Below, piece after piece: positions 6,116 through 24,437 of a stretch of 64,000 nt of DNA. The stretch is taken from NCBI GenBank assembly GCA_938040325.1, contig CALHXW010000178.1, positions 1 through 64,000 of the forward strand, in the 5' to 3' direction. The position numbers and the translations under genes were made by a program. Below the pieces are notes generated by a model. It was given only the letters and a program-made list of their open reading frames with translations, made no database searches and was not told the DNA's origin. The stretch's first letter is position 1. Every line of letters begins with the position of its first letter. This DNA is from an uncultured bacterium. Its GTDB lineage: Bacteria; Myxococcota_A; UBA9042; PHBI01.

Positions 6116-8143
6116 TTAGTCTGCGGTCACCTCGGCGATGGGGCGCGGCCAGACGCCGTCGCCGGGCAGACGGTAGCCGCAGCCGACCGGCGGCTCCGGA
6201 TGCGCCATCAGCGCGTTCGTCGGGCTCGCGTCCTGGCTCCACCAGCGCATGGACACGTGCATGTGGTGGTGGTGGAACGGCCAGCCGTCGCCGTAGGCCA
6301 GCGAGCCAAGGAGGTTGTTGACATCGGTTGTTGTGATGACGCCGGCGTCCCGCAGGCGGGCAGCTTCGGCTTCGAAGAGCGGGGCCAAGAGCTTGTCGAC
6401 ACCAATGACGCGCAGGCGAGGGTTCCGGGCGAGCGTCACCATAAAGAGCGTTGTCCTCGGAAGGTCGACCACGTGGTTTGCCACGCTCGTACAGAAGTAG
6501 CCGTCGCTGCCGGTGTTGTTGGGGCCGCAGACAATCCCGCCGCTGGAGTCGCCATCGGTCTGGTAGTAGGCGATATCGATGTTGCCGCCCTGGTCGTGAG
6601 TCGTCTCGGGGTGGCGAGGATCGCCCACGTCGAAGCCCGGCGTGATGCCGTCTTTGTCGCACATGTCGATAAGGCCGAGGGGGTCGGTCCCCGGGTACTG
6701 CTGCTGGACCTCATGGATCGCATGGCGAACGGCCATGATGGTCTCGCGTCGAAGCCAGCGGTAGCTTGAGTAGGCCTCGAGGGTGTAGCCGTTGGGCACG
6801 TAGGGATCGTCGGGGCGGGCGAAGGGAAACTGGTAGAGCTGCCCCTTCGTCGCGCCCGTGAAGCCGCGGCACTCGTCGAAGTCGTAGTGCGCTAAGCAGT
6901 CATCGCCGTCGATCCACGGCGATGAGAACGCCTCGAGGTCGTAGGTGTTGGTCGCGCCCGCATACGGCTTGACCCGGAAGTAGCTGGTGGTGTCCGCGTT
7001 GGCGTTCATCACAGAGTGGTACTCGTAGCGGTTCTCATTGGTCCGTTGGCTGTAGTTTTCAGGGCCCACGCGCGATCCGAGCAGCGTGCCCTGCTCGTCA
7101 TAGGCGACGAGGTCCAGGTCGCCCATGATGTGGGCGAAGGTCGCGCCGACGGTGCCGATGTGACCTGCAGGGACCGTCACGGCGTACCAGTCTTCGTCGC
7201 CGCTGCAGAGGTCGACGCTGGCCTGCGACGAGGGCAGCGACAGCTCGGCGGGGGCCCCGATGGTCTCGTTGGGCTCGAAGCTCTGGTCGTTGCAGACGAA
7301 CGGGGCACTCGACCAGCCGAGGACACAGCCGCCGATCGTCGGGTGACAGCCATAGCCGGCCGGGCACTCGGCATCGGCATCGCAGCCTGGCCAGCACGTC
7401 TCGCTCGTGGTCGTGCACTGGTAGCCCTGAACCTGAGGACAGCCGGTTCCACCGGCACACGACGCCATGCAGGCCATGGTGCCGCTGTCGCTAACCTGAA
7501 TGCAGGATGACCCCTCCGGACAGCCGCCAGGCTGGCAGTCGAACTGAAGGCAGTAGCCGCCAATGAAGCCGTTGGCGCCGCCGTCGAAGCCCTCGGGGTA
7601 GCAGATCGCGTCTCCGGCGCAGTCCTCATCGGCTTGGCACGGACCGCCGACGGGGCTGGATCCGCCGGCTCCAGGCCAGCACGTGTCGTCTGCATCGCAG
7701 ATATAGCCCTCGCCGGTGCGGCACTCGTTGCTGGCGCTGCACGACTGGAGGCACCAGGAGTCGCCGCTCTCAAAGTTGAAGCACTGGGTGCCCTCGGGAC
7801 AGGAGAGGTCGCCGCCACAGCTCTGAGTGCAGTAGCCTCCTGGCAGTCCGAGACACCCGTCGCCGTCGCAGTCCGCCTCCGTGCCGCAGGCGCTTCCGAT
7901 CGCTCCCGGCTGAGTCGTCGTAGTGTCGGTCGCAGGCGTCGTGTCCACCGGCAGCGTTGTGTCCACGGCAGGTGTCGTGTCGTCCGCTGTGGCGGTGTCG
8001 TCGGACGTGTCGTCGCTGGCGGTGTCACTCTCGACAGTGTCTGTGCCACCCGCATCGGGGTTGGTGTCGTCTCCACAGGCCATCAGCCCGAAGGTGAAAA
8101 CCAGAGCCAAACGGCCGGCCTTGGTGCGTCGCATCGCCTTCAT
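6116..8143 (-). CDS. Lipoprotein with Cys-rich region and LAS-type (MepA-like) metallopeptidase-like C-terminus
   Basis: LALVFTFGLMACGDD lipobox, Asp/Thr-rich linker, multiple Cys-rich modules, then THDQGGNIDIAYY and HHHHMHVSM motifs. Confidence 0.7.
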   Translation of the reverse strand: MKAMRRTKAGRLALVFTFGLMACGDDTNPDAGGTDTVESDTASDDTSDDTATADDTTPAVDTTLPVDTTPATDTTTTQPGAIGSACGTEADCDGDGCLGLPGGYCTQSCGGDLSCPEGTQCFNFESGDSWCLQSCSASNECRTGEGYICDADDTCWPGAGGSSPVGGPCQADEDCAGDAICYPEGFDGGANGFIGGYCLQFDCQPGGCPEGSSCIQVSDSGTMACMASCAGGTGCPQVQGYQCTTTSETCWPGCDADAECPAGYGCHPTIGGCVLGWSSAPFVCNDQSFEPNETIGAPAELSLPSSQASVDLCSGDEDWYAVTVPAGHIGTVGATFAHIMGDLDLVAYDEQGTLLGSRVGPENYSQRTNENRYEYHSVMNANADTTSYFRVKPYAGATNTYDLEAFSSPWIDGDDCLAHYDFDECRGFTGATKGQLYQFPFARPDDPYVPNGYTLEAYSSYRWLRRETIMAVRHAIHEVQQQYPGTDPLGLIDMCDKDGITPGFDVGDPRHPETTHDQGGNIDIAYYQTDGDSSGGIVCGPNNTGSDGYFCTSVANHVVDLPRTTLFMVTLARNPRLRVIGVDKLLAPLFEAEAARLRDAGVITTTDVNNLLGSLAYGDGWPFHHHHMHVSMRWWSQDASPTNALMAHPEPPVGCGYRLPGDGVWPRPIAEVTAD

Positions 8144-8274
8144 CACTGCCTCCTCCATCGTGCGGTCGGCGGCTTCTCCCATGCGCGCGTCCAAGGCTCA
8201 AGGTTGAAGCCGTCGGCGCGTGCTCCGGCAGCCAACCTATCGACTCGGCGGTTGCACTGAGCTACAAACCGCTC

Positions 8275-13908: not shown

Positions 13909-14880
13909 TCAGCGATTGACCCAGTCGAGCGGTGGTCGCTGCATCTCGCCGAGCGGGCACTCCCGTATCGACGTCGGGAGCGACAGCGGGGTGTTGGTCC
14001 CTATTGTCGACAGGCTCGTGTGGAGCCGGGTGCGCGATACCTCGTCGGCCGGCAAGAGCCAGATGAAGCGATACCCCGGGCTCAAGACAAAGTCGGAGCT
14101 GGGCATCGCCGCGACGACCGCCGTCTCCGTGACCTCGACAACGCCAAGCATCTCGGCGCGTGTCTTGGCGACACTGCGAGCGCGGGCCGCGTCCACGGGC
14201 AACGCCATCGGTAGCCCTCCCTCGGCGCGCCGTAACGCGGTGGCGAGCGGCTCAACGAGGGACGCCGGATCGCCTTCGACCCAGACCACCTGCGGGCTCA
14301 TGCAGCCTGCTTGGTCCCAAGCGCAGATGTCTTGAGCGAGCCCTTGTAGCTCGCTGGATGTCGGCTCCCGAACCCACGCGGCACTGACCCGGTGGCCGAA
14401 GCCGATCACCTCGGTGTGGGGTGGGGCTGAGCTCTTGACCTCAGCGATCGTGTCGTCAGCGCCGAGCACGACGATCCGGTCGACCTGCTCGGCCGCGCGC
14501 CGGAACCCTAGCGCGTCGTCGCTTGAGAAGTCTTGGACCTCGACCCCGTGATCGGCCGCGGCGATCGCCTCGGCGGCTGCGGCTTGGCCACGGGCCGGCT
14601 TCAGCAACACGCGCCCGCCACCAAGGCGCGCCAACAGCACCTGACGGAGCGCACTGACCGGCAGGGTGCGTGCTGAGATGACGAGCGTGTTCACCCGGTC
14701 GGCCGCAGCGGATGCGCGGTGGACGGCGTCCGGCGTCCATGACGCAAACTCGGCCTCGAGGCCGGCCTGGGCGACCTCTCGTGAAAAGCCCATGGCCCTT
14801 GTCGCCGCGAGGAGCGCAGCGCCCGGTCCGGAGCTCAAGACGGTGAGCGCGCGAAGGGGTGAGCTGTCGACTGCAGTCAC
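13909..14880 (-). CDS. LuxC-like acyl-CoA/acyl-protein reductase
   Basis: DICAWDQAGCMSPQVVWVEGDP resembles the LuxC active-site Cys region; overlaps the upstream LuxE-like gene by 4 bp. Confidence 0.8.
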   Translation of the reverse strand: MTAVDSSPLRALTVLSSGPGAALLAATRAMGFSREVAQAGLEAEFASWTPDAVHRASAAADRVNTLVISARTLPVSALRQVLLARLGGGRVLLKPARGQAAAAEAIAAADHGVEVQDFSSDDALGFRRAAEQVDRIVVLGADDTIAEVKSSAPPHTEVIGFGHRVSAAWVREPTSSELQGLAQDICAWDQAGCMSPQVVWVEGDPASLVEPLATALRRAEGGLPMALPVDAARARSVAKTRAEMLGVVEVTETAVVAAMPSSDFVLSPGYRFIWLLPADEVSRTRLHTSLSTIGTNTPLSLPTSIRECPLGEMQRPPLDWVNR

Positions 14881-15959
14881 GAGCGAGCCGTCAGCTCTTC
14901 AGCCGTCAGGCTGCAGCCACGCAAGACAGCATCGGGGGCTCGGCCTAGTAAGGTCAGCCGCCCCTCGTCGTCGAGCTGGCCCAAGTCACTCGTCAGGATC
15001 GCCGAGACGTTGTCGATGTTGAGCACATCAAAGCACGCCACCAAGCCAACGGCTCCGGCGACGAGGTCACCGTGAGTCAGTGGGTCGACGACGCGGAGGC
15101 GCAGGCATGGATTGGCGACCAGAGGACGGCCGTACGCCTGGCTCGAAAGCTCGGTCATGCCGTACTCCGGCACGACATGAGCGGCGGACAGACCGAAGGT
15201 CGCCTCGACCTCTGCGAGCAGCGTCGGCTCGTCGAGGGTGCGGCTCTTCCCTTTGAAGCCACCGGTCAGCATCATCCTGGAACCCGCTGGCAGCAGGCAG
15301 GGGCGGCCTGCCAGTGCATCGAGCAAGTTCACCAGCGCAAACGAGGTGGCGAGGACCACAACGGGCTCAGCACTGGCCTGAGCCGCGGCAACGAAGGCAT
15401 CGGCATCGAGGCCTTGCGAACCCAAGCACCACGCCACATCCGCAGCCCAACGCCGCGCGAGGGCGCTGACCATGTGCGACAGCGAGCTGTCGGGTAGCTC
15501 CTCGGCGGGCGGAATCAGCGACAGCCAGTGAGCGCCTTGCATGCCGGCGAGCACGTGCTCGACAAAGGGTGCCTCCATCCCGGCGTGATACAGGTCGAGG
15601 CCACGAGAGCTGAGGTGTCGCTCCCCCCGCCGACCGGCGGTCGTTCCGCTGGTCCGAAAGGTCTGGAGGTCGGCGTCCGCCGCGCTGAGCCGCAGGTCCC
15701 GAAACAGCTCCGTCGGCACCAGCGGCGCCTGACGCCAGCCCATCGCCGGCGAGAAGCCTCTCGCCGCCGCCAGCCGCCCGTAGGCCGGTATCGTGCCGAT
15801 CTGATGCGCAAGCACCTCCACGGCAAGTGCGTCAAAGCGCTCCGCGTCGGGGGACGCCGCGTAGCTTCGCAGGTCGTCGACCAAGCGAGCGACGGCATCA
15901 GCTGCCAAGACGCCGCTCCTCGGACACACAGGACTCGATGGCGTCGAATGCGGCATCAC
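14877..15959 (-). CDS. LuxE-like acyl-protein synthetase / acyl-activating enzyme
   Basis: FRTSGTTAGRRGERH (adenylation motif), VPEYGMTELSSQAY, C-terminal RGCSLTAEEL. Confidence 0.82.
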   Translation of the reverse strand: MMPHSTPSSPVCPRSGVLAADAVARLVDDLRSYAASPDAERFDALAVEVLAHQIGTIPAYGRLAAARGFSPAMGWRQAPLVPTELFRDLRLSAADADLQTFRTSGTTAGRRGERHLSSRGLDLYHAGMEAPFVEHVLAGMQGAHWLSLIPPAEELPDSSLSHMVSALARRWAADVAWCLGSQGLDADAFVAAAQASAEPVVVLATSFALVNLLDALAGRPCLLPAGSRMMLTGGFKGKSRTLDEPTLLAEVEATFGLSAAHVVPEYGMTELSSQAYGRPLVANPCLRLRVVDPLTHGDLVAGAVGLVACFDVLNIDNVSAILTSDLGQLDDEGRLTLLGRAPDAVLRGCSLTAEELTARS

Positions 15960-17229
15960 GCTGCTCGTCGCTCAACATCAGCGGCGGGCTGAGCCCCAAG
16001 ATGTCCCCGTGGACCCCGCCAGGCAACGTGATGAACCCACGGCTTAGCAGGCGACCCATGACCCTTGCAGCGAGGCCAGGCTCACCGCACTCAAGCCCTA
16101 GCATGGCGCCGCGGCCTCGGACGGGAAGCACCCCCTCGAAGCGGGCGCGTGTTGTCGCCTCGAACCGGCGAGCGCGAGCAGGAAGGTCCATCTCGCGCAT
16201 CACTCGAATCGCCGCCGATCCAGCCGCTGCTGTCACCGGATGGCCCAGGAACGTCGACGTGTGGATCGCCTCGCCTTGGCTCGAGCCCCACGCAGCCATG
16301 GTTTCCGGCTTGGCAAGACAGGCGCCAACGGGCATCCCACCAGCAAGAGCCTTGCCGATGCACAAGACGTCCGGGACGACGCCGTCGTGGTCGCCGGCCC
16401 ACCAGTCACCTGTGCGGCCAAAGCCGGTGTAGATCTCGTCAAAAACGAGGGTGAGTCCGTGTTTGTCGCAGAGGGCGCGTAGACCGGCGAGCCAGCCCTT
16501 AGGCGGCACCACGTCGCCGCCACGGCCCAAGATCGGCTCGACAATCACCGTACCGATGAGCTCGCCGCCGGTCGCCGGCCCCGTGAAGAGCTGGTCGAGC
16601 ATGGAGAGCTCGCAGCCATAGGGCATGTGTGTCACGTGAGCGCCGAGCTGACCTGCAAAGGGCGCGCGGAAGTCGCCTTTGTATGCGGTTGCAGCCAGCG
16701 CACCGTAGCTCAGCCCGTGGTACGAGCCCCAAAACGCAAGAACCCCAGGCTTCCTGCTGGCAAGCCGTGCGGTCTTCAGGCCGGCCTCGACCGCCTCTGA
16801 GCCGCTCGACGCCAAGATGCAGCTCGACAAGCCCGGGGGCGCAAGCTCCGCAAGATCTGCCATCAGCTGGATCCGCGGGCCGTTGGGGAAGACGTCGCCC
16901 ATGCCGTGCAGCAGGCTGCCGGCCTGGTCTCTGACGGCGTCGGTGACCTCGGGGTGCGCGTGGCCGATCAGCGCGACACCGAACGCACCGGTGAGATCGA
17001 CGAAGCGATTGCCGTCGGCGTCCCAGACGTTGGCGCCGTAGGCACGCTCCCACACGATCGGGTCGCTTCCGATCCCGCGCGCTTCGCCTTGCCGTGCACG
17101 CCGCGCAGTGATCGCAGGACACTCGTGACGTGCGAGGAGGTCGACCCGGGAAATACTCTCGGGGCCCGGGATGGTTGTCACGAGGGCGGGCAGAGCCCAC
17201 CCCGCATCGGCGGTCCAGATATCGCTCAC
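15898..17229 (-). CDS. Class III PLP-dependent aminotransferase
   Basis: LASSGSEAVEAGLKTARLA, LTLVFDEIYTGFGRTG, CIGKALAGGMPVGA. The ORF extends to 17259, but GTG at 17229 avoids overlap with the divergent gene. Confidence 0.9.
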   Translation of the reverse strand: MSDIWTADAGWALPALVTTIPGPESISRVDLLARHECPAITARRARQGEARGIGSDPIVWERAYGANVWDADGNRFVDLTGAFGVALIGHAHPEVTDAVRDQAGSLLHGMGDVFPNGPRIQLMADLAELAPPGLSSCILASSGSEAVEAGLKTARLASRKPGVLAFWGSYHGLSYGALAATAYKGDFRAPFAGQLGAHVTHMPYGCELSMLDQLFTGPATGGELIGTVIVEPILGRGGDVVPPKGWLAGLRALCDKHGLTLVFDEIYTGFGRTGDWWAGDHDGVVPDVLCIGKALAGGMPVGACLAKPETMAAWGSSQGEAIHTSTFLGHPVTAAAGSAAIRVMREMDLPARARRFEATTRARFEGVLPVRGRGAMLGLECGEPGLAARVMGRLLSRGFITLPGGVHGDILGLSPPLMLSDEQRDAAFDAIESCVSEERRLGS

Positions 17230-17257: not shown

Positions 17258-17995
17258 ATGTTGAAGTACCGTTATTGCGCGACGAACGTGGTCCATCAGG
17301 AGACTGGGCGTCCAAGCACGGCCCACTCAGTTGGCAAGCTGGTTCGTGGCGCTGACGGCGGCTGTCGACGTCGGCCGGTCCTCGCGCTCTTGGCTGCTCT
17401 CGTGGCGTTGCCGACGGCGGCCTGCGGGGAGACGCCGGGTCCGAGCAGCGAAGCCATCAACGCTTACGTCCAGCGTGAAGCGGGCACGGCGCCGACTCTG
17501 GACAACAGCGCGCCGACGGTGATGGCTGCAAGCGCTGGCGGCAGCGACGCAGCAAACGCCCTAGAGCCAGCGGTTCCGCCCACACCTCAGACCGTCCCGC
17601 GGGCACCAGTGGCGCGGCGGGTTCAGGTCACGGTCGAGCGGGGCGTCGACCTCTACGACAGCGACACAGGCCCAGGCGAGACCGACGCCTACGTGGTCCT
17701 CGACTATGAAGGACATCGCTTCGAGAGCAGCGTCGTCGAAGGCGAGCTCAACCCCGTCTGGGGCGACAGCTTCGTCTTCGACGTCCGACCTGGCGGGGTC
17801 TTGACCGTCAGCCTGCTCGATGAAGACACGCTCGCGTCCGACGACAAGCTCGGCATCGTCTCGCAACCGATCGAGCCGCTGAGCATTGGCGAGTCACAGG
17901 AGCTGTGGCTATCGTTTCGCGGCGGTGAGATGGGCAAGGTCTTGTTGACCGTGACCGGCATACGGCGCGATGCGCCCGGCGATCGGCGCCGCTGA
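17258..17995 (+). CDS. C2-domain lipoprotein (start uncertain)
   Basis: VLALLAALVALPTAACGE lipobox; RRVQVTVERGVDLYDSDTGPGETDAYVVLDYEGHRFESSVVEGELNPVWGDSFVFDV is a C2 signature; stop overlaps the next start (TGATG). Confidence 0.78.
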   Translation: MLKYRYCATNVVHQETGRPSTAHSVGKLVRGADGGCRRRPVLALLAALVALPTAACGETPGPSSEAINAYVQREAGTAPTLDNSAPTVMAASAGGSDAANALEPAVPPTPQTVPRAPVARRVQVTVERGVDLYDSDTGPGETDAYVVLDYEGHRFESSVVEGELNPVWGDSFVFDVRPGGVLTVSLLDEDTLASDDKLGIVSQPIEPLSIGESQELWLSFRGGEMGKVLLTVTGIRRDAPGDRRR

Positions 17996-18765
17996 TGGCT
18001 CTGGCCACGCCTGCCAACAAGGTTGCCGAGCTGGGCCGCGAGGTTCGCTATCTCGGGAGGGTGCTGGGTGCGGCGTTCCGCACGCTCCCAAGGATGCGGG
18101 CGAGGGACTTTTGGGAGCAGCTTGGAACGCTGGCGCTGTCGGCCTTGCCGCTGATTGGCATTGCCGCGCTCTTTGCGGGCATGGTCATCGCCCTCAACGC
18201 GTCACTTCAGCTATCGCGACTGGGCATGAGCCACCTGGTGGCTGAGATCGGCAGCGTCTCCTTGGTCCGCGAGCTCGCGCCGATCTTCACGGCCCTGTTG
18301 ATGGCCGGCAAGGCGGGGGCCGGACTCGCCAGCGAGCTCGGCATGGTCACGCTGTCTGGGCAAGCGCAAGCTATGCGGGCCATGTCGGTCGACGTCGACC
18401 GTGAGCTGATCGCGCCCAGAGTCTGGGCATGCATCGTCGGCACCCTGCTGATGACCATCGCCGCCATGTTTCTCGGTCTCCTCGGCGGCTTGATCTTGGG
18501 GTCTGCCAAGCTTGGTATCTCGCCGGTCCACTACCTCAACCTCTCGATCGCGTCCCTCGACCCCAGCGACTTTGCCTGCGGCCTCATCAAGGCAGCGGGC
18601 TTCGGAACGATCATCGCCTGCCTGGGCGTGACCTACGGGCTCAAGGCCAAGGCGGACGCAGGGGTCCTTGGCCGCCACACGATGAGTGCGGTTGTCCTCT
18701 CAAGCTTCTTAGTCCTCGTGTGCGACCACATCTTCAACACGCTCATCATCGCGGTGCTTGGATGA
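17995..18765 (+). CDS. MlaE-family lipid ABC transporter permease
   Basis: RELAPIFTALLMAGKAGAGLASELGMVTLSGQAQAMRAMSVD matches the MlaE/YrbE motif. Confidence 0.88.
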   Translation: MALATPANKVAELGREVRYLGRVLGAAFRTLPRMRARDFWEQLGTLALSALPLIGIAALFAGMVIALNASLQLSRLGMSHLVAEIGSVSLVRELAPIFTALLMAGKAGAGLASELGMVTLSGQAQAMRAMSVDVDRELIAPRVWACIVGTLLMTIAAMFLGLLGGLILGSAKLGISPVHYLNLSIASLDPSDFACGLIKAAGFGTIIACLGVTYGLKAKADAGVLGRHTMSAVVLSSFLVLVCDHIFNTLIIAVLG

Positions 18766-19607
18766 TCCCTGTCGACCATGTCGCTCAGATCGCCAGCTCG
18801 CTTGGCGCTGGCCAGAGCGCCGTCTACCGGATCGTCGACCTGCGCTGGCGCCTTGGACCCACGTTCACGCTGTCGGTGCCGCAGCTCAGCTTGCCACGCG
18901 GCAAGACGACTGCGCTGCTCGGTCGCTCTGCCAGCGGTAAGTCCACCCTGCTCTCGCTGCTCGGCCGTGTCGAAGGCAGCTACTTCGAGCGTGCCGACAA
19001 CCTCTCGGGTGAGATCTGGCTCGAACGCGCCGGACGCAACGCCATTGAGCTGCTGAGTCAGACCGAGCGCCAGCTCCTCACGGCCCGCCTGCGCGGCCCT
19101 GGCATCGGGTTCGTGTTCCAACGCGAAGGTCTGTTCCCTGGCCGCTCCACCGTCGGCAACATCAGCTGGCCGCTGCAGGCCTGCAAGGTCGCAAGCGGAC
19201 AGGAGGCCGATGCCCTCGCTCGGCGCCACCTCGAGCGCGTCGGGCTCAACCCCGACAAGGACGTCTCGACCCTCTCCGGAGGAGAACGCAAGCGCCTGGC
19301 GCTCGCCCGCGCTCTCGCCTTTGAACCTGAGGTGTTGCTGCTGGACGAACCGCTGACCGGGCTCGACCCCGAGGCCCTCGGCGGACTGCTCGATCTGCTG
19401 GCGAGCGTCGCGGAAGACGACGCACGCACGATCGTCATTGTGACCCACCAAGAGCAGGACGTGCGGCGCCTTGCCGACCACGTGGTCTTCATGGACGCTG
19501 GGCAGGTCGCTGCTGCGGGGACCCGTGAGGCGATGGACCAGGTGCTGACCGATTTTTTTGCGGGCGACGTGCCCGTTTCACAGCTTGTTTCGCAGGAGCT
19601 GACATGA
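18762..19607 (+). CDS. ABC transporter ATP-binding protein (MlaF role)
   Basis: GRSASGKSTLLSLL, LSGGERKRLALARAL, VLLLDEPLTGLD; ATGA overlap with the permease. The longer ORF from 18429 is an extension. Confidence 0.88.
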   Translation: MIPVDHVAQIASSLGAGQSAVYRIVDLRWRLGPTFTLSVPQLSLPRGKTTALLGRSASGKSTLLSLLGRVEGSYFERADNLSGEIWLERAGRNAIELLSQTERQLLTARLRGPGIGFVFQREGLFPGRSTVGNISWPLQACKVASGQEADALARRHLERVGLNPDKDVSTLSGGERKRLALARALAFEPEVLLLDEPLTGLDPEALGGLLDLLASVAEDDARTIVIVTHQEQDVRRLADHVVFMDAGQVAAAGTREAMDQVLTDFFAGDVPVSQLVSQELT

Positions 19608-20203
19608 GCGACCGGGTCGGCGGGCGAAGCCGCGCTAACTTTTGGATCGGGCTCGTCTTCGGCGGCATCGTGGCCGCGGCGTTGCTCTTTAGCGTCTACT
19701 ACGTGCCCCGCAAGGGCATCACGTTCGGCAACGAAGCGATCTCGTTTACGGTGGTCTTAGAGCAGGCCCACGGCCTCCACGCTGGCAGCCCGGTCTACGT
19801 CAGCGGTATCGAAGCCGGCGAGGTGAGTGCGGTCGAGATTCGGGCGCTCGATCGCATCGGCTACCGAGTCCTCGCGACCGTCGAGGTGTTCGATGGCGAG
19901 CGCTTTGGCCCGATGCTCAAGACGGACTCTACCTACCAGGTCGCTAGCAGCGGACTCCTCGGCGAGGTCACGCTGGCCATCGCGCCGGGCGGCAGCGGTC
20001 TTGCGGTCGCCAACCAGCTGGTCAACGGCGTCGCGCCGACCGACTTCGGCCGGATCGTTGACGATCTCGGCTACATCGCCAAGCGGCTGGCCGACTTCAT
20101 GGATGCCCGCGAGCCTGGCGATCCCAACGTCCGCCGAGCGCTCGTCGACCTACAGACGACCATTCGCAACCTCCGCGACTTCAGCGGCAACCTCCCAAGG
20201 TAG
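19604..20203 (+). CDS. MlaD/MCE-domain protein
   Basis: N-terminal TM, then VVLEQAHGLHAGSPVYVSGIEAGEVSAVEI; ATGA overlap with the ATPase gene. Confidence 0.88.
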   Translation: MSDRVGGRSRANFWIGLVFGGIVAAALLFSVYYVPRKGITFGNEAISFTVVLEQAHGLHAGSPVYVSGIEAGEVSAVEIRALDRIGYRVLATVEVFDGERFGPMLKTDSTYQVASSGLLGEVTLAIAPGGSGLAVANQLVNGVAPTDFGRIVDDLGYIAKRLADFMDAREPGDPNVRRALVDLQTTIRNLRDFSGNLPR

Positions 20204-20219: not shown

Positions 20220-20945
20220 TCAGTGGTCGATCGACGCCTTGCGACGCCAGGACGATGCATGCCGCCGAGAGCGTGGTCGCTCGCGGCGGACATCCACCTC
20301 TGTGCGCTGCGTCACCAGCGGCCGTGCCCCGCGTATCGTGGTGACCCAACGCTGGTTGCGGCCACCATCCGACGACGCCACCAGCGTCTCGTCGAGCGGC
20401 TCTTTGAGCACGGACTGTGCGGCGTGCAGCAGAGCCGGGCAGTGGCTGCTGAAGCTCGGTCGTGTGTCTCGATAGCGCGTCGCTGTGAGCGCGATCACAA
20501 GCTGCGCTGTGAACGCAACAGGCTCGGCTGAGCGCGGCCACATGTCAGGGTCGTAGGGCTCGGCACACGCTGGGCAGGCTGCGAGTGGCACGTTGCCGAC
20601 TTCACCCTGCGGTCCGACCAACAAGTGACCGGCGGTCGGTGACGCCGTGTCGCAGCGCGGGCACCACGTGATCTCGTCGCCCAGTGCGGTTGCGTAAGGG
20701 TTTGAGAACACCCGAGGGCGACCGTAGAGCGTGATCTGGACCTCCGGCTCAACGAGGCCGGCCGTCATCGCGAAGCGCTGCAGGTCACCCGCCGGCAGCA
20801 ACACGATTGAGCGCACGTCGTTCTTACTGCTCTTCGTTGCAAGACCACGATCGATGAGCGCCGACCGCAGCCGGTGCCCGACCAGACCGGCACGAGCGCG
20901 CTCGCTGTCTGATGGGTAGATGTAGCGAACGTAGCGCGACTTCAT
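20220..20945 (-). CDS. Hypothetical four-Cys zinc-ribbon-like protein (paralog A)
   Basis: MKSRYVRYIYPSD..., CPRCD...CPACAEPYDPDMWP; similar to the ORF at 21016-21726. Confidence 0.7.
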   Translation of the reverse strand: MKSRYVRYIYPSDSERARAGLVGHRLRSALIDRGLATKSSKNDVRSIVLLPAGDLQRFAMTAGLVEPEVQITLYGRPRVFSNPYATALGDEITWCPRCDTASPTAGHLLVGPQGEVGNVPLAACPACAEPYDPDMWPRSAEPVAFTAQLVIALTATRYRDTRPSFSSHCPALLHAAQSVLKEPLDETLVASSDGGRNQRWVTTIRGARPLVTQRTEVDVRRERPRSRRHASSWRRKASIDH

Positions 20946-21015
20946 AGCGACAGGATGTAGCTGGGATACCCTGCCGGTCAACTATCACCGCGTCGATGCG
21001 AGGGGTGCTGCTGCA

Positions 21016-21726
21016 TCAGCGCACAGAGCGCTGGCGCGGTCGCAAGCGCATGGGCGCGCGCGCTGCCTCAAACCCCCGGGTGCGGCGACGGCGCTCGAAC
21101 GCCTCGTCCTCTGGCACCACGGGCGCAAACCCGCGGTCGGTCTTACACCACCGCTGGGATCGCGCAGCGCCCGCGGGCTTCGAGGCCTTCGCCGCGATCA
21201 GCGTCTCGATGACAGGCCCGCCCAAGACAGACTCGACCGCGCTCACAAGGCTTGGGCATCCAACGCTCATCGCATCACCCACGTCGGCGTACGTGGAGGT
21301 CGTCAGCGCGACCACCACGCGGGCTTCGAACTCCACGGCGAGCGCCATCGTCGGCCACAGGTCCGCGTCGTAAGGCTCGCGGCAACCCGAGCAGCGCCGC
21401 GGGCCGGTCGGCGTTCCCATGTCCTTCGCCGCGACGAGGTCGCAGCCTGGGCAAAACTGCTGCCGCTCGCCTTCGTCGACGAACGGATTGCAGAAGGTTC
21501 GCGGCTCACCGAAGACGGCGACGCGCAGTCGCGGGTCGAAGATGCCAGCTCGCTCACAGTAGGCGGCCAGCTTTCCGGCAGGCGCCAGAATCACCGAGCT
21601 GTCGGTGGCGACGAGCTCGGTCGCGAGCCCTTCCTCGCAGAGGCGCCGGACAACCCTAGAGACCAGTGTGCCGCCGCGTGGCCGGTCGGCGTCAACGGGA
21701 TGGAGGTAGCGAGCGTAGCCGTACAT
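21016..21726 (-). CDS. Hypothetical four-Cys zinc-ribbon-like protein (paralog B)
   Basis: MYGYARYLHPVDAD..., CPGCD...CSGCREPYDADLWP; similar to the ORF at 20220-20945. Confidence 0.7.
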   Translation of the reverse strand: MYGYARYLHPVDADRPRGGTLVSRVVRRLCEEGLATELVATDSSVILAPAGKLAAYCERAGIFDPRLRVAVFGEPRTFCNPFVDEGERQQFCPGCDLVAAKDMGTPTGPRRCSGCREPYDADLWPTMALAVEFEARVVVALTTSTYADVGDAMSVGCPSLVSAVESVLGGPVIETLIAAKASKPAGAARSQRWCKTDRGFAPVVPEDEAFERRRRTRGFEAARAPMRLRPRQRSVR

Positions 21727-21920
21727 TCGAGCTCCTGGAAAACGAGGTTGCACAGAGGACCCGCAGCGACACGAAAGTAAACCAAGTCTCTTCACGGTGG
21801 CCTGTCGTCGGCCAGTTGTGCGGTCCTGCAGCCCCGTTTGACCACGCGGTCGCTGGATGTGAACCCGGTAAAACGAACTGCGCAATTGTACCTTTGGAGT
21901 CCGACGTCTAGCATGCGAGT

Positions 21921-24437
21921 ATGAGTGTTGTCACAGACGCCAAAAACGACCGGGGGACGGGCAGAATCGCGCAGCTCGTGTCACGCTTCGTTCCACCGGA
22001 CCTCGACCCGCTGAGGGACCGCCGGGCCCGTGTGAGTGCTGGCTTGGCGCTCTTGTGCACCACAACCGGGCTTGTGCTCGGCGCCACCAGCCTTGTCGCG
22101 AGCTGGACCGAGCTGGCGCTCGTCGCGACGTTTGGGCAGGCCGTGTTTGGAGCGTTCTGGCTGTGGACAATGCGGCGTGGCGGCTCGAACTTTGTACCGT
22201 TCGTCCACACCTTTTCGGTCAGCGCGATCCTGATTGCCGTCGGCATCTCGCTGCGGCACGGCGGGATTGCTCACCCTGTCTCGGTGCTCCTTGTGCTCGT
22301 GCCCATTGCTGCTCTGGTGTTGCTGCCGCGCAGGACCGCCAACATCTACTGCATCATCGCGGTCGCGTGCGCCGTCGGACTCCTGCTGATCCCTCCCCAC
22401 TGGCTGCCGACGCCCGACGTCCACCTTGCGCCAATCGCAGAGCTCAACTGGAACGCGCGCTTCCGCTACGGCATGATGTTGGTGGCCAGCGTGCTCTTCA
22501 CCTACGCCATCGGCGTGGTGTTTGAAGAGGGTCGAGCCCACGCGGAAGACTCGCTCCGGGCGTCAAACCGGTCGCTCCAAGAGGCCAATCAGGCGGCGCT
22601 GTCGGCGTCGGTGACCAAGACGGCGTTCCTCGCCAACATGAGTCACGAGATCCGCACGCCGATGAACGGGGTCGTCGGTATGAGCGAGCTGTTGATGTGC
22701 GAGCCGCTGACAGCGGGTCAGGCCGACATGGTGCGAACCATGCGGGACGCCGGCATTGCCTTGGTGGATGTCATCAACGACGTGCTCGATCTGTCGCGCA
22801 TCGAAGCGGGTCGACTCTCACTCGAGGAATCCAGCTTCGACCTCAACTCGGTGTGTCGCTCCGTGGTCAAGCTGCTTCAAGTCGAGGCGAAGGCCAAAGA
22901 CGTCACCCTGTCGCTCGTCTACCTGCCGGGAACACCGCGTCACGTTGTGGGCGACCCCCTTCGGATGCGTCAGATCGTCCTCAACCTTGTCGGCAATGCC
23001 GTGAAGTTTACTGAGGTCGGGTCCGTCACGCTGACAGTCGGCACGGTCGCTGGGCCCTCGGACGCCGACGAGCAGCGCTTCGAGATGCGCGTGACCGACA
23101 CGGGGATCGGCATCGATGACCAGCACCTCGCACTGCTCTTCGATCCCTTCACGCAGGCGGACGAGAGCACCACCCGGCGCTTTGGTGGATCCGGTCTCGG
23201 ACTCGCCATCACGCATCGCCTCATTGGCCTCATGGGCGGCGAGCTGACCGTCGAGAGCCAGGTCGGCCGCGGCAGCTCGTTCACCGCCTCTCTCACGCTG
23301 GCGAGAGCGGTCACAACCCTCGTTGACGATCAGCCGCTGCCGGCGCCACGCCCCCGGGCTGGCATCCGAGGCCGCGTGCTTGTTGTTGAAGACAACGCGA
23401 TCAACCAGCGTGTCATCACCAAGACCCTCGAGCACTTTCAGGTCCAGGCGGTCATCGCGTCGGACGGCGAGGAAGCGCTCGCAAAGCTCATCCACGAGCC
23501 GATCGACCTGGTGTTGATGGACCTCAACATGCCCGGGATGGACGGGTTCGAGGCCGCCCGTAGGATCCGCGCTGTCGAGCGCTGGCGCTTCCTGCCCATC
23601 GTCGCGCTGACGGCGCGCGTCTTTGAGTCCGACCGCGCACGCTGCCTCGAAGCGGGCATGAACGACTTTCTCGCCAAGCCACTGCGCGTCGAGGTGCTTG
23701 AGGCGGTCATCGACCGCTGGATTGGCGACGCCGCTGAGCCCGTTGCGACACGCACGCCGGCTGTGGTCGAGCCGGTCAAGCCGCTTGGGAGCATTCGTTT
23801 GACGGTACCGACGTTCATTGACCGTGAGATCGTCGCGCCGGTGCTGTCGACCTTTGTCGCGCGGCACCCTAACACCCGCGTCGAGGTCACGGTCGACGAC
23901 CGTCACCTGGATCAACAAACGGGCGTCATCGACATCTCCGTGCGGTTCGCGATCGGAAGCGACTATCCATCGTGGAGCCGCGTGATTGGGCACGATCGCG
24001 CGATCTTCGTCGGGACACCGAAGCTCGTCGCGCGCTGCGAGGCAGCGGGGCTCGAGCGCCTTCACGAAGCACCATGGGTTGGCCACGAGGCGTTCATCGG
24101 CTCGACCTACCATGGAGTCAGCTCAGCAGGCGAAGCACAGACCGTGACCCCCACCTACGTGGTCACGACCAACAACGGTCGTACGCTGCTGTCGATGGCC
24201 GTCGCCGGCGTGGGCTTGGCCCACCTGCCAATGCTCGCGGTCAACAACGCCGGCCAAGGCGCGTCCCTCCGAACGGTCTTTCCAGGCGTCTTCGATCACG
24301 CCGTCGAGGTTGTCGCGCTGTTCCCGAAGCACCACCAAGCGACACCCGAGGTCCAGTACCTCATCGACCTACTGGCCGCGCAGGTGACCGTGAAGACCGC
24401 TGAGCTCCGAGTGTCAGCCCAGCAGACCCGCCACTGA
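21921..24437 (+). CDS. Hybrid sensor histidine kinase with receiver and C-terminal LysR substrate-binding-like domain
   Basis: TM N-terminus; FLANMSHEIRTPMNGVVGMSELL (HisKA); TGIGIDDQHLALLFDPF and GGSGLGLAI (HATPase); VLVVEDNAINQR and LVLMDLNMPGMDG (REC); IRLTVPTFIDREIVAPVLSTFVARHPNTRVEV...TNNGRTLLSMAVAGVGLAHLP (LysR-substrate-like). Confidence 0.88.
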   Translation: MSVVTDAKNDRGTGRIAQLVSRFVPPDLDPLRDRRARVSAGLALLCTTTGLVLGATSLVASWTELALVATFGQAVFGAFWLWTMRRGGSNFVPFVHTFSVSAILIAVGISLRHGGIAHPVSVLLVLVPIAALVLLPRRTANIYCIIAVACAVGLLLIPPHWLPTPDVHLAPIAELNWNARFRYGMMLVASVLFTYAIGVVFEEGRAHAEDSLRASNRSLQEANQAALSASVTKTAFLANMSHEIRTPMNGVVGMSELLMCEPLTAGQADMVRTMRDAGIALVDVINDVLDLSRIEAGRLSLEESSFDLNSVCRSVVKLLQVEAKAKDVTLSLVYLPGTPRHVVGDPLRMRQIVLNLVGNAVKFTEVGSVTLTVGTVAGPSDADEQRFEMRVTDTGIGIDDQHLALLFDPFTQADESTTRRFGGSGLGLAITHRLIGLMGGELTVESQVGRGSSFTASLTLARAVTTLVDDQPLPAPRPRAGIRGRVLVVEDNAINQRVITKTLEHFQVQAVIASDGEEALAKLIHEPIDLVLMDLNMPGMDGFEAARRIRAVERWRFLPIVALTARVFESDRARCLEAGMNDFLAKPLRVEVLEAVIDRWIGDAAEPVATRTPAVVEPVKPLGSIRLTVPTFIDREIVAPVLSTFVARHPNTRVEVTVDDRHLDQQTGVIDISVRFAIGSDYPSWSRVIGHDRAIFVGTPKLVARCEAAGLERLHEAPWVGHEAFIGSTYHGVSSAGEAQTVTPTYVVTTNNGRTLLSMAVAGVGLAHLPMLAVNNAGQGASLRTVFPGVFDHAVEVVALFPKHHQATPEVQYLIDLLAAQVTVKTAELRVSAQQTRH

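Follow-up and report, generated by a model that had tools for sequence, protein, structure and literature searches.

Carboxylate activation, semialdehyde reduction and amination by a class III aminotransferase are the successive steps of the ArgB-ArgC-ArgD and LysZ-LysY-LysJ routes. In tambjamine YP1 biosynthesis, TamA and TamH proceed through activation of a fatty acid by an ANL enzyme, reduction to the aldehyde and amination by a class III aminotransferase, and the two proteins together converted fatty acids to amines in vitro in one pot (PMC9594044). KecF of koreenceine biosynthesis has been proposed to carry out the last two steps on a polyketide (PMC6498172). Here we describe three genes in a stretch of 64,000 nucleotides (the window), part of the 7.8 Mb genome (G000:C178) of an uncultured bacterium of the Myxococcota, which encode a class III aminotransferase (AT), a LuxE-like acyl-protein synthetase and a LuxC-like reductase. 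The synthetase and the reductase are homologous to those of the LuxC-LuxE fatty acid reductase of luminous bacteria (PDB 7xc6); as in that system, the genes are adjacent, the catalytic cysteines are kept, and the expected reaction leads from an acid to an aldehyde. The acid-to-amine logic of the trio is well supported, and we regard the trio as a familiar chemical logic in a new form, one whose distribution is surprising.

Gene layout and the Lux homologs

ORF calling places the trio on the minus strand at 13909-17229, or up to 17259 with the longest ORF, in the order AT, LuxE-like gene, LuxC-like gene (Table 1). The GTG at 17229 is an alternative AT start that fits the relatives better than the start at 17259. 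The LuxE-like gene likely begins at the TTG at 15908, which is preferred because GAGGAG stands just upstream and because the nearest homolog (L032) starts at the aligned position. The choice affects the successive overlaps reported in the preliminary description: the 4 bp shared by the LuxE-like and LuxC-like genes stand, whereas the roughly 60 bp between AT and the LuxE-like gene hold for the longest ORF only. The GTGA at the former junction likely couples translation of the two genes. A simple scan found no sigma-70-like promoter. The earlier remark that luxAB and luxD are not visible here also holds, with luxA, luxB and luxD all missing among the annotated neighbouring genes of the trio.

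Table 1. Positions of the trio, its overlaps and other features of the window.
Feature	Position	Strand	Length	Remarks
Class III (omega-type) PLP aminotransferase (AT)	15898..17229; longest ORF from 17259	-	453 aa (longest ORF)	PF00202; PLP Lys303; Arg246
LuxE-like acyl-protein synthetase (ANL/PaaK-type fold)	14877..15908; longest ORF 14877-15959	-	360 aa (longest ORF)	FRTSGTT, EYGMTEL and RGCSL motifs
LuxC-like acyl-protein/acyl-CoA reductase (aldehyde dehydrogenase fold)	13909..14880	-	323 aa	Cys193 in GCMSP
luxE stop/luxC start overlap	14877..14880	-	4 bp	GTGA
AT/luxE overlap	15898..15908	-	11 bp with TTG start; 62 bp for longest ORF	
MlaE permease, ABC ATPase and MlaD-like lipid transport genes	17995-20203	+		Divergent from the trio; a C2-domain protein before them
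Hybrid histidine kinase	21921-24437	+	838 aa	HisKA, HATPase and receiver with a C-terminal LysR substrate-binding domain; unusual combination
Two neighbouring paralog-like proteins	20220-20981; 21016-21885	-		Paired CxxC; common CNPF/CAEPYDADLW-like region; no Pfam match
Protein with Thr/Asp-rich, lipoprotein-like start	6116-8194	-		Cys-rich repeats; C-terminus like murein hydrolase by eye; no Pfam match

The LuxE-like protein is recognised through its family. By itself, the window protein matched no Pfam family, a PDB search with this single sequence returned only weak ANL matches, and a search of the genome contigs with it gave nothing, whereas an alignment of its relatives gave matches. PF04443 was matched by 27 of the 31 aligned family members (best 5e-25), and the family profile matched the solved Photobacterium LuxE (7xc6) over nearly its full length with an E-value of 1.4e-38. 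The predicted acyl-carrying cysteine of the C-terminal RGCSL motif is invariant in all 31 LuxE-like sequences and aligns with the GCSL of LuxE in 7xc6. The predicted structure (pLDDT 92) has a PaaK-type ANL fold.

The LuxC-like protein matched PF05893 directly (69.2 bits, cut-off 21). Its family profile covered nearly the full length of the solved Photobacterium LuxC (7xc6; E 1.1e-42) with the catalytic cysteine aligned, and this cysteine in GCMSP is invariant among the aligned relatives. The best structural match of the predicted model (pLDDT 93) was 7xc6_A, with a TM score of 0.75. The protein scored only 39 bits against NF052251, the NCBIfam equivalog for bioluminescence LuxC, far short of its cut-off of 750. 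Matches of the two family profiles to both chains of 7xc6 thus confirm the LuxE-like and LuxC-like identities first assigned from the sequence alone, as well as the retention of both active-site cysteines. At another locus (L042, 100-2487, minus strand), one ORF of 795 aa contains both domains, an apparent natural LuxE-LuxC fusion.

The aminotransferase and its altered gateway

AT matched PF00202 with 294 bits, and the PLP-binding lysine is invariant in 69 of 69 orthologs, which bears out the initial class III assignment. Among the families listed, neither AT nor three tested orthologs reached an NCBIfam cut-off. AT is similar to ArgD, GABA and putrescine aminotransferases. Its class III membership and ArgD-like similarity could be taken to mean that it is simply the glutamate-1-semialdehyde (GSA) aminomutase or acetylornithine aminotransferase of primary metabolism, a reading to which we give next to no credence. 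AT scored 158 bits against the HemL model TIGR00713 (cut-off 527) and 246 bits against the ArgD model TIGR00707 (cut-off 410), and the same genome encodes a true hemL (572 bits) and a true argD (456 bits) elsewhere. Because these dedicated genes exist and AT lies far below both cut-offs, neither function is its main role; a firm assignment to an unrelated step such as GSA aminomutase, named in the preliminary description as the outcome that would count against a module, was therefore not obtained.

In the E. coli GABA-type aminotransferase, Glu211 and Arg398 form a switch that allows the enzyme to bind either glutamate or a substrate without an alpha-carboxylate. In pairwise alignments, the window AT has Arg246 opposite Glu211 and a glycine opposite Arg398. 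The substitution is general: the Glu211 column is arginine in all 69 orthologs, and the Arg398 column holds Ala, Ser, Gly, Gln, Thr, Val, Glu or Cys and never Arg, so that the GABA/ornithine-type gateway pair is missing throughout the 69 aligned orthologs. The paralogs of AT have Glu at the first position in 19 of 27 cases and Arg at the second in 22 of 27. The orthologs also form a sharply separate group by score, mostly above 475 bits compared with about 375 bits or less for the paralogs. Since the replacement of Glu211 by Arg and the loss of Arg398 extend to every ortholog, AT probably binds its amino donor or acceptor differently from GABA-type enzymes. The conserved gateway swap would represent a direct and testable change in amino donor handling by a class III aminotransferase.

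Distribution, gene neighbourhoods and the candidate substrate

Of the 40 loci sampled in the Myxococcota, 31 show AT directly beside LuxE in the same orientation, usually with LuxC next, and the trio is clustered in other phyla too. Culturable carriers include Polyangium and Minicystis, among the latter Minicystis rosea (CP016211.1). In Bradymonas-like genomes (family f19) and one other genome, AT is present on another contig. Across 190 Myxococcota genomes that are at least 90% complete, 162 carry both AT and LuxE, 3 only AT, 2 only LuxE and 23 neither, the latter being spread over about a dozen families. The same association was observed in Gemmatimonadota (n = 81; both 17, AT only 0, LuxE only 1, neither 63) and in Verrucomicrobiota (n = 79; both 5, AT only 0, LuxE only 2, neither 72), and in one of these two LuxE-only genomes (G102) AT is truncated at a contig end beside LuxE (L104). 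Fisher tests gave p-values of 3e-24, 1e-16 and 9e-7 for the three phyla, respectively; these ignore shared ancestry and therefore overstate significance, although the losses are scattered. The co-occurrence of LuxC was judged from gene neighbourhoods. AT and LuxE have thus been gained and lost together in three phyla. The expectation that homologs of the three genes co-occur is borne out by the order and strand of the 31 loci and by the way AT tracks LuxE even where the two are unlinked.

This joint history weighs on a further explanation, in which LuxE and LuxC supply the fatty aldehyde from which ether lipids, alcohols or hydrocarbons are made while the AT step is unrelated and the genes are neighbours by chance or shared regulation. 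Myxobacteria commonly contain ether lipids, and most of the route leading from fatty acid to alkyl ether has yet to be worked out (PMC9131029). Ramlibacter, Pantoea, Bacillus and Paenibacillus have LuxE and LuxC relatives but not this AT, and LuxE occurs alone in Bacteroidota, which indicates that acid activation and reduction have other uses. However, AT and LuxE share their gains and losses although mostly unlinked in Gemmatimonadota and Verrucomicrobiota, and we consider an unrelated AT step improbable.

The linked loci gave little guidance on the substrate. At linked trio loci no neighbour recurs from one clade to another; the SUF operon with folK and cysH accompanies the trio in one clade, mpl in another and uvrA in a third. 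Guilt by association from linked loci was therefore dropped. An ABC ATPase gene is among the transport genes divergent from the trio in the window (Table 1), and one likewise lies upstream of AT in two genomes of the same family (L032, L034). Two Eremiobacterota-type loci (L102, 6469-6924; L109, 6086-6562) have the order CoA-binding protein, LuxE, LuxC, AT, with aconitase-family genes near. A route from alpha-aminoadipate to lysine was considered in view of aconitase-family genes near these two loci and one verrucomicrobial locus, and dropped as they do not recur. By sequence reading, AT lies beside pyruvate dehydrogenase-like genes in three small verrucomicrobial genomes, possibly Methylacidiphilum-like (L235, L236, L240), with LuxE elsewhere and, in two of them, far off on the same chromosome. 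No amine-utilising gene was found.

Genes of fatty acid synthesis recur where AT stands apart from LuxE and LuxC. In eight loci the enoyl reductase gene fabI sits directly upstream of an unlinked AT and in the same orientation; seven of these belong to Gemmatimonadota by name or by sampling, and the eighth comes from a MAG labelled Gammaproteobacteria. The FabI proteins exceeded the cut-off of the NCBIfam equivalog in three of three tested cases. FabH is one small gene away from AT in four Bradymonas-like genomes, and PlsX-FabH lies about 1 kb downstream of AT in one verrucomicrobial genome. These associations are lineage-specific, and the AT neighbours are unrelated in most genomes. Taken with the homology to the fatty acid reductase, the fab genes beside unlinked AT favour a fatty acid, not decisively, as the likely substrate.

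The same acid-to-amine logic could instead act on a small polar acid, such as a hydroxy acid, a sugar acid or an amino acid side chain, destined for a glycan or cofactor. LuxE or LuxC domains are reported in Vibrio cholerae RfbN, for tetronic acid in an O-antigen cluster (PMC4772473), and in flagellin glycosylation islands (PMC4875605), so the acid need not be fatty, and the aminotransferases that AT resembles act on small substrates. Against this, genes for sugars or glycans do not recur around the trio, the genes that do recur beside unlinked AT belong to fatty acid metabolism, and in profile comparisons the fatty acid reductase complex is the best match of both Lux homologs. We therefore consider a polar acid rather unlikely and retain a fatty acid as the favoured substrate.

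The proposed pathway compared with known systems

We consider it probable that the trio constitutes one pathway from a free carboxylic acid, a fatty acid being the likeliest candidate, to a primary amine. LuxE would adenylate the acid with ATP and load the acyl group onto its own C-terminal cysteine, LuxC would take the acyl group on its cysteine and reduce it to the aldehyde at the expense of NAD(P)H, and AT, with its altered gateway, would convert the aldehyde to the primary amine using an amino acid donor. A further product would presumably be made from the amine. The evidence bears directly on what the genes are, on their catalytic residues and folds, and on their conservation and joint occurrence; the step activities, the fatty substrate, the direction and the further product are inferred. 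The reductive-amination module predicted at the outset gains support from the conserved gene order and from the co-occurrence of AT and LuxE in three phyla; the conservation, the gateway substitutions and the fatty acid genes beside AT had no place in that first description.

The pathway might also run in reverse, with AT deaminating an amine and LuxC and LuxE oxidising the aldehyde or releasing the acid. Class III aminotransferases and enzymes of the aldehyde dehydrogenase fold are reversible in principle, and putrescine and GABA aminotransferases are catabolic. Amine catabolism is nevertheless very improbable here, as oxidation to a free acid does not need an ATP-dependent acyl-protein synthetase, and catabolic modules are not usually found near-universally and in a single copy.

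With the biosynthetic direction retained, a broader proposal can be made tentatively, though it is somewhat doubtful: the trio may represent an undescribed core pathway to a long-chain primary amine that probably serves in building a membrane or storage lipid, in nearly all Myxococcota and in parts of Gemmatimonadota, Verrucomicrobiota, Acidobacteriota, Omnitrophota and Eremiobacterota. The literature search turned up flagellin islands and unrelated work but no account of a module that combines LuxE, LuxC and an aminotransferase; this absence is weak evidence, as few subscription journals were covered. The carboxylate-to-amine pathways known so far serve a few specialised natural products, and a near-universal single-copy version in a phylum would imply an overlooked core metabolite. 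The trio would also give LuxE-LuxC homologs a role in non-luminous bacteria and offer a ready three-enzyme acid-to-amine route for biocatalysis.

The comparison with described systems defines what is distinct in this module. Unlike the lux operon, the trio has no luxAB or luxD nearby, and AT would take the place of luciferase as the consumer of the aldehyde; its LuxC-like protein is also shorter than the 477 aa of classical LuxC. In the tambjamine system the acyl carrier is an ACP domain, whereas in the trio it is a cysteine of the synthetase; TamH is a reductase of the cyanobacterial acyl-ACP reductase type fused to its aminotransferase, whereas the reductase here is LuxC-like, and TamA and TamH belong to a specialised gene cluster whereas the trio is phylum-wide. 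KecF and PigE (prodigiosin) likewise pair a class III aminotransferase with a reductase to convert an acyl or aldehyde intermediate to an amine, but they are fused multidomain proteins of specialised metabolism; KecF, like TamA and TamH, works with carrier proteins and another reductase family inside a specialised cluster, and AT scored 218 bits against the PigE profile, far under its cut-off of 850. No reductase-aminotransferase fusion of the TamH/KecF type was present, the genes being separate in the window and the LuxE-LuxC ORF of L042 being the only fusion among the loci. Finally, ArgB-ArgC-ArgD and LysZ-LysY-LysJ rely on a kinase and phosphate-ester chemistry in place of the adenylation and cysteine thioesters expected of the trio, and argD is a separate gene in this genome.
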